A stretch of DNA of 32,260 nucleotides from Bacteroidaceae bacterium (GTDB lineage Bacteria; Bacteroidota; Bacteroidia; Bacteroidales; Bacteroidaceae), in the NCBI GenBank assembly GCA_021443415.1, contig JABUTZ010000013.1:85066-117325 (forward strand), given 5' to 3'. The notes beneath the pieces are model-generated. The model was not told where the DNA came from. It made no database searches and saw only the letters and a program-made list of their open reading frames with translations. Both the position numbers and the translations under genes were made by a program. Of this stretch, positions 11,476 through 32,082 are shown piece by piece. Each line of letters starts with the position of its first letter. Position 1 is the stretch's first letter.

Positions 11476-12369
11476 ATGAAAGAGAGTAGTCCGGTGGCGA
11501 TAGGGATCAACGACTTTCCGGAGTCGTTGGGAGGGAGACTGAAGGATGTCATACTGCTGTTCGACAACCTTGAGGACCATGGGCACAGGCGCACGGAGGA
11601 CGCGTTTCCGCTCAAGACGGAGGACGTGATCTTCGTGATGATGGTCGGCGGCGAGTGCCGCATGATGGTCAACATGGAGGAGGTGACGGTGCGCAAGGGG
11701 CAGGTGCTCGGCATCATGCCCAACAGTGTGTTCATGGCGCGCTGGGCCAGCGATGACATGCGTTTCTGCTGTTTCTCGATGGCGTCCGACCTCTACGACT
11801 CCATCCTCAAGACCGTGGGCCTGTACATCAGTCTGCCGGAGCGTTACGCCCGCTTCACGATAGTCGACTGCGACGAGAAGTCGGTGGAGAGTTCGCTGGA
11901 GATGTACGCCATCATGAAGCGCGAGCTCCTGGGCGAGGACTATCCGACGAAGAAGATGGTGATGGAGCGCTACTGCGAGATACTCCTGCTCAAGTGCATC
12001 TACCGTCTTGATACCCACCAGCCCAGCGAGCAACCCGAGCTTGTCGTGCCTCGCCGCGTGCAAATCTACCGCGACTTCCTCTCCCTGCTTGAGCAGCATT
12101 TCCTGCGCGAGCGCAACCTCGCGTTCTATGCCAGCCAGCTCTGTCTCACGCCCAAGTACCTCTCCACCGTCGTGCGCGAGGTGAGCGGCAAGCACGGGGC
12201 GCAGTGGATCGACGAGTATGTCACCATGGAGGCGAAGGCGATGCTCCGCCAGGGGCGTTACAACATCAAGCAGGTCAGCGACGCCCTCCACTTCTCTTCG
12301 CAGAGCATGTTCGGCCGCTTCTTCAAGAAGATGACCGGCTACACGCCGAAGGAGTACAAGCAGCTTTGA
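11476..12369 (+). CDS. AraC family transcriptional regulator
   Basis: C-terminal HTH: LCLTPKYLSTVVREVSGKHGAQWIDEYVTMEAKAMLRQGRYNIKQVSDALHFSSQSMFGRFFKKMTGYTPKEYKQL. Confidence 0.93.
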   Translation: MKESSPVAIGINDFPESLGGRLKDVILLFDNLEDHGHRRTEDAFPLKTEDVIFVMMVGGECRMMVNMEEVTVRKGQVLGIMPNSVFMARWASDDMRFCCFSMASDLYDSILKTVGLYISLPERYARFTIVDCDEKSVESSLEMYAIMKRELLGEDYPTKKMVMERYCEILLLKCIYRLDTHQPSEQPELVVPRRVQIYRDFLSLLEQHFLRERNLAFYASQLCLTPKYLSTVVREVSGKHGAQWIDEYVTMEAKAMLRQGRYNIKQVSDALHFSSQSMFGRFFKKMTGYTPKEYKQL

Positions 12370-12505
12370 TGGGAGTTGACTCGCTGCACTCGTGGAGTTA
12401 ACTCGCTTTGCTCGTGGAGTTAACTCGCTTTGCTCGTGGAGTTAACTCGCTACGCTCGTGGGAGTTAACTCGCTTCGCTCGTGGGAGTTAACGGGAGTTA
12501 ATGAA
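12370..12505. repeat. Tandem array of about 22-bp units containing the palindrome GAGTTAACTC
   Basis: Five consecutive units of the form tggagttaactcgctttgctcg, followed by degenerate gggagttaac units. Confidence 0.92.
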
Positions 12506-12507
12506 TG

Positions 12508-12540
12508 GGAGTTAACGGAAGGTGTTATTCCGTTAACTCC
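12508..12540. terminator. 13-bp perfect inverted repeat GGAGTTAACGGAA/TTCCGTTAACTCC between convergent genes
   Basis: Loop ggtgtta (12521-12527); no T-tract, so the termination role is inferred only. Confidence 0.55.
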
Positions 12541-12643
12541 TAGCGCCGCAAGGCGCATTACTTCCATTCATTAACTCCCAGCCTGCCGAAAGGCAGGCAT
12601 AACTTCCATTTATTAACTCCCAGCGCCGCAAGGCGCATTACTC
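12541..12643. repeat. Three GNRA-tetraloop hairpin modules in TTAACTCC...TTCCATT direct repeats
   Basis: GCGCC-GCAA-GGCGC (12543-12556), GCCTGCC-GAAA-GGCAGGC (12581-12598), GCGCC-GCAA-GGCGC (12623-12636). Confidence 0.9.
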
Positions 12644-12646
12644 CCA

Positions 12647-14953
12647 TCAAGGCAACAAGATTTTCTTGTTGCCGACAATGTTGATGCCCTTGACGGGGCG
12701 TGCGAGGCGCGTGCCGGTCAGGCTGTGGATGGCTGTGGTGGCGGAGTCGGTGACGACGGTCGCGATGCCATCGAGGGTGATGCGTATGGTGAAGGAGTAT
12801 TCGGTGTAGATGGGGTCGCCCGTGGCGGCGTTGCAGACAGCACCCGAGCCGAGTACGAAGCGGTAGGTGCCGGGAGCCGTGATGGGGCTGTCGAGCGTGA
12901 ACGTCACCTGGTTGTCCACCTGCTCGCCATCTGCGCGCTCGTTGAAATGGCCGGTGAAGCGCGCGCCCTCACCCTCGGCCACCACCTCCTCGACATACGA
13001 GTCGACGGACGCGTCCCAGGTCGGGTTCACCGTGTTGTAGTTGAAGAACGTCAGCAGGATCGACTCGATGCTCTCCACCGTGTCGCCATCGCCGGGAGTC
13101 GCCACCACGTCGCGGCCGTCCCAGTTGCCCGTGACATTATAGACGAGCGTGAACGCCGTGCTCGCCAGGCCAGCAGTAAACTGGCTCTCGCCGTAGGTGT
13201 AGTCGCCGATGGCACCCTCGGGCACCGTGATGGTCACCTCGGAAGCCGCGCGCACGGGTTCGTCGAACATAATCATGACGTTCGTCATGCCGTCGCTCAC
13301 GAGACGGACGGTGGTGAAGTACTCCTCGTCCGCCGTCTTGACGCAGGCCGTCGGTTTCCTGTCCGAGTTGATGGCGTAGGTCGAGAAGAGAGGCAGATAG
13401 ACCTCGCCCAGCATGTTGAGGCTCGAACCGCTCACGGGATCGGCGAACATGGCGATGTCCCATTCGTAGGCGACGCCGCTGTTGTAGTAAGCCGCCACGG
13501 GGTGCATCGTGCCGTCAAGGCTCCAGATGATGTGGAGCGAGACACGCACGTTGTAGCCGTCCTTGGCTCCCGTGGGCAGGCGGAAGCCGATGAGTTGCTC
13601 CTTGCCCTCGGTAGTCAGCTGGCAGTCCTTGAGGTCGACGAACTCGTCGCGCAGGTCACCCCCGGCGGTCGTCCACGACACCTCGATGCCGTCGTAGTGC
13701 ACCAGTCCGGTGTCGCCGACCCATATCTCCACCTCCTGGTTCTCCTCGGTCAGGCGAGTGCCCGAGGCGGGCAGGATCTCGTAGGCGAGCACATCGGTTA
13801 TGTCCTTGAAAGGCAGGGTGTAGGAGAACGAACCAATCGTGCCGTGCTCGCCGCTGTAGCATGACTGACCGTTCGGGTCGCGCACCTCGAGGAGTTTGAA
13901 CTCGAAGGTGTTCCATGCTATGTTCAGGTTCATCGTCTTGTATGTGCGCATCACTCCCGTGAAGTCCACCTTGACCGTGTTGCCCTCGATGGTGACGCGG
14001 TTGGCGATGTCCTCGTCCACCCACACGTCGTCCACCTCGGCGTTGCCCATCATCAGATGTGCGCTCGCACTGCCCACCTCGTCGGAGAACGTGAACACGG
14101 CGATGCCCTCCTCGTCGCCCTCGTTGAACCACGACTTGATGGCCGCGGGCACCTTGGCGCTGACGAGCGTGAGGGGAGTCTTGCTAATCTTCCAGCGCAG
14201 GGTGAGCGAGCCGTCGGAGCCGAACTGCTGTCCCTCGCACTTGATGCCCGTGAGTTTCATCACCAGTTCGTCGCCCTCCTTTACCTTGCCCGAGCTCATC
14301 CAGCCATAGACGACGGTGCCGAGCTGTAGGCGGAAGCCATGGTCGTAGTGGCCCCAGACGAAGTCCTCCCAGTTCTCGACCACGCCCGAGGCTCCGTCGT
14401 CCGAGTAGTGGAGGATGCCGGCGGCTATCAGCTCGTTCCAGCGCGCCTGCGGATAGACGGTGGTGGAGCAGGAGCCGCAGGTCAGCGTGCCCTCGTGGAA
14501 CTCCACCTCGTTGGTGTTGAACGTGATCTGGAGTATGCCGTCGTTGGTAACGTCGAAGGGAGAGCCCTCGGCGGGGCTCACATCCTTGAGGGCAGGCACG
14601 AACGAGCCCTCCTTCTCGAAGGTGGCCATCACCTCGAAGTCGGCGAACGGCGACGTGTAGGTGATGTAGTAGAGCATGCCCGCCTTGGCGGTGAAGTAAT
14701 AGCCAGCCTCCTCACCTCCGTAGATGCCGTTGAAGGTGGCGACGATCTGCTCGCCGTTCCTTGACTTGATGGCAGGCGAGGCGTTGTAGCCCGTCAGCGA
14801 GATCTTGCCGTTGGCGGGAGCCGCCACCTGGAAATAGGTCGAGCCCATCGCCGCTACGGGATACTTCTTGCCGAAAGTCATCGGGGTGTAGGTTTGCGCT
14901 GTCGCGCACAAAGAATAAAGAATAAAGAATAAAGAATAAAGGAGATGTTTCAT
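12647..14953 (-). CDS. Secreted multi-domain protein with T9SS-like short C-terminal motif
   Basis: Signal peptide MKHLLYSLFFILYSLCATAQ; C-term IHSLTGTRLARPVKGINIVGNKKILLP. Confidence 0.75.
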   Translation of the reverse strand: MKHLLYSLFFILYSLCATAQTYTPMTFGKKYPVAAMGSTYFQVAAPANGKISLTGYNASPAIKSRNGEQIVATFNGIYGGEEAGYYFTAKAGMLYYITYTSPFADFEVMATFEKEGSFVPALKDVSPAEGSPFDVTNDGILQITFNTNEVEFHEGTLTCGSCSTTVYPQARWNELIAAGILHYSDDGASGVVENWEDFVWGHYDHGFRLQLGTVVYGWMSSGKVKEGDELVMKLTGIKCEGQQFGSDGSLTLRWKISKTPLTLVSAKVPAAIKSWFNEGDEEGIAVFTFSDEVGSASAHLMMGNAEVDDVWVDEDIANRVTIEGNTVKVDFTGVMRTYKTMNLNIAWNTFEFKLLEVRDPNGQSCYSGEHGTIGSFSYTLPFKDITDVLAYEILPASGTRLTEENQEVEIWVGDTGLVHYDGIEVSWTTAGGDLRDEFVDLKDCQLTTEGKEQLIGFRLPTGAKDGYNVRVSLHIIWSLDGTMHPVAAYYNSGVAYEWDIAMFADPVSGSSLNMLGEVYLPLFSTYAINSDRKPTACVKTADEEYFTTVRLVSDGMTNVMIMFDEPVRAASEVTITVPEGAIGDYTYGESQFTAGLASTAFTLVYNVTGNWDGRDVVATPGDGDTVESIESILLTFFNYNTVNPTWDASVDSYVEEVVAEGEGARFTGHFNERADGEQVDNQVTFTLDSPITAPGTYRFVLGSGAVCNAATGDPIYTEYSFTIRITLDGIATVVTDSATTAIHSLTGTRLARPVKGINIVGNKKILLP
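14913..14940. repeat. Four perfect GAATAAA heptads encoding the signal-peptide core of the 12647..14953 gene
   Basis: gaataaa x4 on + strand, translating on the minus strand as LYSLFFILYSL. Confidence 0.92.
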
Positions 14954-14960
14954 TGTGTGT

Positions 14961-14995
14961 GGGAGTTAGCGGGAGTTAGCGGGAGTTAGCGGGAG
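14961..14995. repeat. Decanucleotide tandem repeat GGGAGTTAGC x3 plus partial
   Basis: gggagttagcgggagttagcgggagttagcgggag. Confidence 0.9.
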
Positions 14996-18923: not shown

Positions 18924-19034
18924 AGCAAGGCTATACCTTTATTCTTTATTCTTTATTCTTTATTCTTTATTCTTTATTCTTTATTCTCTACACTCTACAC
19001 TCTACACTCTACACTCTACACTCTATTCTCTATC
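18924..19034 (+). repeat. 14-nt head AGCAAGGCTATACC plus 13 uninterrupted heptads (7x TTTATTC, 5x TCTACAC, 1x TCTATTC) and a partial
   Basis: Longest heptad array; reaches the stop codon of the 19030..19665 gene. Confidence 0.95.
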
Positions 19035-29180: not shown

Positions 29181-29332
29181 TGTTTTTAAACGCAGATTAA
29201 CGCAGATGTTCTTGTAGTTCGTTGGATGAATTGAAATTTACGCAGATGTTTATGGGTGTTTTTAAACGCAGATTAACGCAGATGTTCTTGTGGTTCGTTG
29301 GATGAATTGAAATTAACGCAGATGTTATTTTT
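29181..29332 (-). repeat. Two tandem 76-bp copies of the ATCTGCG leader element
   Basis: TGTTTTTAAACGCAGATTAACGCAGATGTTCTTGTRGTTCGTTGGATGAATTGAAATTWACGCAGATGTT at 29181 and 29257. Confidence 0.93.
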
Positions 29333-29350: not shown

Positions 29351-29441
29351 AGCAAAACTATACCTTTATTCTTTATTCTCTACACTTTACACTTTACACT
29401 TTACACTCTACACTCTACACTCTATTCTCTAACCTCTAACC
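29351..29441 (+). repeat. 14-nt head AGCAAAACTATACC plus 11 uninterrupted heptads
   Basis: TTTATTC x2, TCTACAC, TTTACAC x3, TCTACAC x2, TCTATTC, TCTAACC x2; contains the rsmA stop codon. Confidence 0.95.
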
Positions 29442-31065: not shown

Positions 31066-32046
31066 GTGAATGTGATTCGGACCATATTGCGGGTCGTGCT
31101 GCCGATAGCGCTCGGCGGCGGCATTCTGTGGTGGATGTACCAGGGAGTGCGCTGGGCGGATGTCGAGGAGGCGCTGGCGGGCGGCATGGACTGGCGGTGG
31201 ATGCTCGCCTCGATGCCTTTCTGCGTGCTGGCGCAGTGGATACGCGCCGTCAGGTGGCGGCAGATGCTCGAGCCGCTCGGCGAGCGGCCGCGGTTGCGCA
31301 CGGCGACGATAGCCATCTATCTCAGTTATGCAAGCAGTCTCGTCATCCCGCGCGTCGGCGAGGTGCTGCGCTGCGGTGTGCTCAAGCGATATGACGGGAC
31401 GCGGTTCACGCCCTCGCTTGGCACCGTGGTCACGGAGCGCATCGCGGACATGCTGACGATTGGTGTCATTGCTGTACTCGTCTTTTTGTGGCAGTGGGAC
31501 GGCTTCCTGCGTGTCGCCGAGGAGACGGGTGCGGGCATAGGGCCTATCGTGCAGCAGTTCAGTCCGCAGGGCTGGTTTGTCACTGTGCTCTGCGCTGCCG
31601 TCACCGTGGCGTTCATCGCCTGGCTGGCGCGTCGGCTTGCCCTCTGGAACAAGTTGCGCGGCGCCGTACATGGCATGGTAGATGGACTGACATCAGTGCG
31701 GCAGTTGCGCCATAAGTGGCTGTTTGCGCTCTGGTCGGTGGGCATCTGGGTCGCTTATTTCCTCCACTTCTACGTTGCCTTTTTTGCTTTCGAGTGCACT
31801 GCTGACATAGCCGTGGGGCCCGCCTGGGTGGCGTTTGTCATCGGCACGTTCGCCGTGCTCGTGCCCACGCCTAACGGAGCCGGGCCGTGGCACTTCGCCG
31901 TCAAGACCGTGCTCTGCATATACGGAGTTGCCGCCACGCCGGCCGCCATGTTCTGCCTCATCACGCATACGCTGCAGACAGCGTTCACTGCGCTGCTGGG
32001 GGTGTATGGGCTTGTGGCGCTTGGGGTTTTAAAGAATAGAGAATAG
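31066..32046 (+). CDS. Lysylphosphatidylglycerol synthase TM-region / YbhN (UPF0104)-like membrane protein
   Basis: Multi-TM; RAVRWRQML, ...GEVLRCGVLKRY..., PTPNGAGPWHFAVKTVL; GTG start inferred. Confidence 0.82.
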   Translation: MNVIRTILRVVLPIALGGGILWWMYQGVRWADVEEALAGGMDWRWMLASMPFCVLAQWIRAVRWRQMLEPLGERPRLRTATIAIYLSYASSLVIPRVGEVLRCGVLKRYDGTRFTPSLGTVVTERIADMLTIGVIAVLVFLWQWDGFLRVAEETGAGIGPIVQQFSPQGWFVTVLCAAVTVAFIAWLARRLALWNKLRGAVHGMVDGLTSVRQLRHKWLFALWSVGIWVAYFLHFYVAFFAFECTADIAVGPAWVAFVIGTFAVLVPTPNGAGPWHFAVKTVLCIYGVAATPAAMFCLITHTLQTAFTALLGVYGLVALGVLKNRE

Positions 32047-32082
32047 AGTGTAGAGTGTAGAGAATAGAGAATAAAGAATAAA
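32034..32082. repeat. Seven heptads GAATAGA GAATAGA GTGTAGA GTGTAGA GAATAGA GAATAAA GAATAAA
   Basis: Contains the stop codon of the 31066..32046 gene. Confidence 0.93.

Follow-up and report, generated by a model that had tools for sequence, protein, structure and literature searches.

A modular intergenic repeat array in a gut Bacteroidales genome: one copy of a dispersed family with probable MITE-like affinities

The gap between an araC-family gene and a convergent 768-aa gene, at 12371–12645 of the window (the whole stretch of 32,260 nucleotides that was analysed), is filled by one copy of a dispersed repeat, whose ends lie one base from the stop codon of each flanking gene. At least 40 such arrays are scattered between the genes of this uncultured gut Bacteroidales. 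They are non-coding mosaics in which copies of an 8-letter word form two inverted arms, one on either side of a short inverted-repeat core. We consider the array to be, probably, a decayed or expanded copy of a lineage-specific, modular MITE/BIME-like intergenic repeat, from a family that is either derived from a MITE-like element or part of one. The repeat is of a familiar kind and novel in its particulars, and no description of it was found in the open-access literature. The locus is laid out as follows:

11476–12369, + strand: AraC-family regulator gene (HTH_18, HTH_AraC), with its TGA stop at 12367–12369, one base ahead of the array
12371–12482, + strand: left arm, five forward words GGAGTTRA with the linker ACTCGC-N-GCTCGT, in units of 22–23 bp
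12483–12516, + strand: left arm, forward words with ACG and ATGAAT linkers
12517–12531, unstranded: core, a short inverted repeat GGAAGGTGTTATTCC between the arms, placed by repeat analysis and comparison with other copies
12532–12645, − strand: right arm, reverse words TAACTCC/TAACTTCC with linkers ATTCAT/TTTAT and hairpin modules
12543–12556, + strand: hairpin module GCGCC-GCAA-GGCGC
12581–12598, + strand: hairpin module GCCTGCC-GAAA-GGCAGGC
12623–12636, + strand: hairpin module GCGCC-GCAA-GGCGC, second site
12647–14953, − strand: 768-aa gene without a Pfam family, converging on the array, its stop one base past the array end
14961–14995, + strand: second small array, one-armed, GGGAGTTAGC repeated 3.5 times, just upstream of the start of the 768-aa gene

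The window contains nine copies of the word GGGAGTTA, where shuffles predict 0.4. A preliminary description of this gap had reported five units of about 22 bp carrying GAGTTRACTC, a 13-bp perfect inverted repeat at 12508–12520/12528–12540, three hairpin modules and a left arm whose match on the right is split. All are present: the units are spaced 22, 22, 22 and 23 bp apart, the hairpins lie where listed above, and 12493–12512 pairs with 12560–12579 at 95%. That description read the split as if a hairpin had interrupted an older palindrome; the modules do indeed sit between repeat words, but this is one case of a general modular build. The window also holds heptamer tandem repeats (CTTTATT, CTCTACA, AAAGAAT and AGAATAG, at 18937–19025, 29378–29438, 14910–14941 and 32033–32080) and, at 29181–29326, 1.9 copies of a 76-bp unit (TGTTTTTAAACGCAGATTAACGCAGATG..., 97%) that is unrelated to the array.

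In this genome, an incomplete draft (86% complete), the 9-mer GGGAGTTAA was counted 223 times, compared with four times for the reversed control. We parsed 41 arrays from stretches around these sites, so that the structured copies elsewhere whose absence would have spoken against the preliminary description proved to be numerous. In all 41 the word GGGAGTTA points inward, with forward words on the left and reverse words on the right: 25 arrays are two-armed (order FR) and 16 one-armed (10 F and 6 R), and the order RF never occurs. The arrays are short, with a median word span of 136 bp. Words are joined by linkers of several interchangeable types: ACG, GCG or TCG gives a 10-bp period, ATGAAT or ATAAAT one of 14 bp, and ACTCGC...GCTCGT one of 22–24 bp. 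Hairpins, among them TGCGCC-TGC-GGCGCT and TGCCTGCC-TGC-GGCAGGCT, also serve as linkers, and occupy the opposite arm from the ACTCGC...GCTCGT linkers in 16 of the 19 arrays that have both. Runs of N were observed at or beside arrays of nine loci (L046, L047, L049, L051, L057, L062, L067, L069 and L071).

The occurrence of the family was compared across 139 genomes of the genus, the present one among them. In the other genomes the count of GGGAGTTAA ranges from background to 97 and differs sharply between species; the one named relative matched by the pattern is RGIG9360, a metagenome-assembled Bacteroidales genome from yak abomasum. Arms pointing inward are likewise the rule for the relatives' elements, with word spacing and linkers peculiar to each species and with core ends GGACGATA/TATTGTCC. 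In one relative (G125) the core is conserved and usually 42 bp long (GGACGATAGCTTTGGATGCTGTCTGCCTATATGGTATTGTCC); another (G110) carries four near-identical copies of about 190 bp at different sites. The core of the present genome (G000) is GGAATGTTGGCTCC-like and differs from the GGACGATA...TATTGTCC of the relatives, with one copy (L041) retaining GGTATCGTCC.

The relatives also provide the marks of mobility. Copies in G125 and in other relatives have the 10-bp inverted repeat YTKAAGTTTC at their ends and 8-bp target-site duplications on either side: 7–8 of the 8 positions match in 12 of 19 pairings bounded by terminal inverted repeats (two of the 19 being alternative pairings at one locus), where 2000 shuffles averaged 1.97 and never exceeded 6. 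A further perfect duplication, TGACATAA, was found at locus L262. Such ends and duplications are the signature of DDE-type transposition, and on this evidence the element in the relatives appears to be MITE-like and mobile, probably moved in trans by a DDE-type transposase. No convincing autonomous partner was seen in the few candidate G125 stretches checked for an insertion sequence flanked by ends of this kind. In the present genome the duplication test gave no signal (mean 4.15, compared with 3.96 when shuffled; fraction 0.13), and the outer terminal inverted repeat is absent from the window. We therefore infer mobility here from the kinship of the architecture with that of the relatives' elements. 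The copies in this genome, which showed no outer transposition ends, would descend from a MITE-like element, and their arms would have expanded and diversified, presumably through slippage at the 8-bp words and recombination among them. Effects on the neighbouring genes, if any, such as folded 3′ ends or insulation of one gene from the other, would be secondary.

A somewhat different account of the same comparison is that the family is a genus-wide class of foldback-type mobile element, whose inverted arms are rewritten in a species “dialect” of spacing and linkers while the inward polarity and the short core are kept. We regard this as a possible but unlikely reading. If true, it would imply that the inverted arms evolve in concert over dozens of loci, and perhaps that a transposase recognises the word repeats themselves.

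The hairpins raise the question of whether the arrays are structured RNAs or terminating elements, in which transcripts arriving from either side would be stopped or protected by their folded 3′ ends and the hairpins kept for that purpose. In the fetched loci of this genome we identified 83 hairpin modules (86 pattern matches, three judged false). As many as 78 are fully paired, through stems that include GCGCC, GCGCCC, GCCTGCC, GTGCTC, GCGTCC and GCACCC, each seen with its matching partner, and double changes occur at three stem positions, as expected of compensatory stems. To the preliminary description, the pairing kept through different stems had suggested selection on structure. The pairing is a real property; however, selection on structure, palindrome-correcting mutation or module copying could each explain it, and the data do not separate them. 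The same description had taken a GNRA loop to be conserved, which holds in this window only. Across the genome the loop is of three nucleotides in 69 of the 83 modules, mostly GCA, and of four in nine; seven of these are GNRA, and three of the seven sit in this window. The GNRA loop is thus a local coincidence: the pattern first described is real, a local loop sequence was mistaken for a conserved feature, and the interpretation placed on it is partly supported. An Rfam search gave no family at gathering score (best 29.3 bits, against a gathering score of 60). Because the loop type is not conserved and no Rfam family was matched, the reading as a GNRA RNA was dropped.

Folding of both strands of the array gave strongly negative z-scores relative to shuffles (−11 on the + strand and −10 on the − strand). 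This agrees with a structured RNA, but long inverted arms fold in this way whatever their role. The genomic positions of the arrays are similarly two-sided. Many arrays begin a few bases past a stop codon and finish about ten bases ahead of a start codon, and in most of the gaps one or both neighbouring genes end toward the array, as would suit an element acting on transcript ends. With a coding-score gene call, however, most copies lie in tandem gaps (24, compared with 8 in convergent and 3 in divergent gaps, the remainder being undetermined), and the 8 to 3 difference is not significant; an apparent enrichment in convergent gaps under a crude gene call (12 to 2) was discarded on this basis. 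The array also lacks a U-tract, in that no GC-rich stem is directly followed by a T-run inside it, which argues against a terminator, and the species-specific copy number speaks against a conserved function. A role as structured RNA therefore seems to us quite improbable.

Could the arrays instead have grown where they stand? On this account each is a minisatellite, a tandem repeat that fills a gap by slippage and is immobile in this lineage, comparable to the heptamer repeats common in these gaps. The tandem periods of 10, 14 and 22–24 bp fit such growth, as does the lack of duplications in this genome, and so do the other tandem repeats that occupy the gap between purH and mreB in relatives. 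We used this gap for synteny because the best matches of the araC gene in relatives are only 43–49% identical and the reading downstream is invalid at several loci. Here the present genome has a 120-bp one-armed array, while none of the 28 corresponding gaps parsed in relatives contains a GGAGTTA array (one further locus was unparsable), a difference that favours the MITE-like reading; several relatives have AATCGTA-like repeats in the gap. The same word in the same inward order nevertheless recurs at some 40 loci spread over many contigs, which requires copying between loci, and we find it very doubtful that growth in place alone accounts for the family.

We note some further observations at the purH–mreB gap. 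In one relative (G085, locus L179) the gap holds an element whose core is similar (CTTTTGCTTTGG...GTATTGTCC) and whose word, GAAGATA/TATCTTC, is different, a combination suggesting that the core can persist when the word is replaced. Next to mreB, a 249-aa ORF (L059, 730–1479) covers the IMP cyclohydrolase part of purH and has an array after it. An AICAR transformylase-like protein (393 aa; L040, 202–1383), also followed by an array, is a separate ORF on a different contig.

The arrays could also be REP/BIME elements moved by a single-strand Y1 transposase (RAYT), their palindromic units spreading as folded single strands. Short palindromic units in intergenic mosaics, a high copy number and the lack of duplications in this genome are all in keeping with this. 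Y1 transposition makes neither target-site duplications nor terminal inverted repeats, and both are present in the relatives. Furthermore, a search of this 86% complete genome, with working controls, found no match to Y1_Tnp (PF01797), and we give this explanation very little credence. A plasmid or phage origin was rejected, since there was no blastn match and no viral contig with the 22-nt pattern.

A MITE-like ancestry thus remains our preferred reading of what seems to be a modular mobile repeat not previously described, present in a large group of uncultured gut Bacteroidales. The family accounts for recurrent structured intergenic arrays in these genomes, and possibly for some assembly breaks. 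It also offers a natural system in which to study the joint diversification of a mobile element's inverted arms.

Several known repeats resemble the family in part. REP/BIME elements and REPINs are likewise high-copy extragenic palindromes forming mosaics with spacers, as far as the portions consulted describe them; they differ in that no Y1/RAYT transposase was found here and that the relatives have target-site duplications (PMC2817692, PMC3116915). The neisserial dRS3/RS mosaic elements are also arrays of short repeats with interchangeable segments in intergenic DNA, and the sections of the account consulted do not describe for them a core with two inward arms (PMC3898611). The dRS3 pattern ATTCCC(N8)GGGAAT had no match in any fetched locus. 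The BOX elements of Streptococcus are similarly modular and intergenic, with variable internal modules and stable predicted folds, and are likely to be non-autonomous mobile elements; they are set apart by description, having the named modules boxA, B and C and belonging to another phylum, where the present family has an 8-nt word and linkers (PMC3049150).

The closest known system in the same order, Bacteroidales, is BrickBuilt, a MITE of Porphyromonas gingivalis that is intergenic, has a narrow host range and contains an internal 23-nt tandem repeat, or minisatellite; it forms long predicted stem-loops and causes assembly gaps (PMC4596501). The likeness lies in the intergenic position, the internal repeats and the folds. 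The BrickBuilt 23-nt repeat, AGAYCATARTATCCTCTCRTRTG, is absent from all fetched loci. The BrickBuilt terminal inverted repeat, GAGACCTTTGCA, is IS5-like and accompanied by variable duplications (PMC4596501), whereas the relatives studied here have YTKAAGTTTC ends and 8-bp duplications; and in place of a 23-nt tandem repeat, the present family has a word repeated in two inverted arms, with linkers that can be exchanged for one another.
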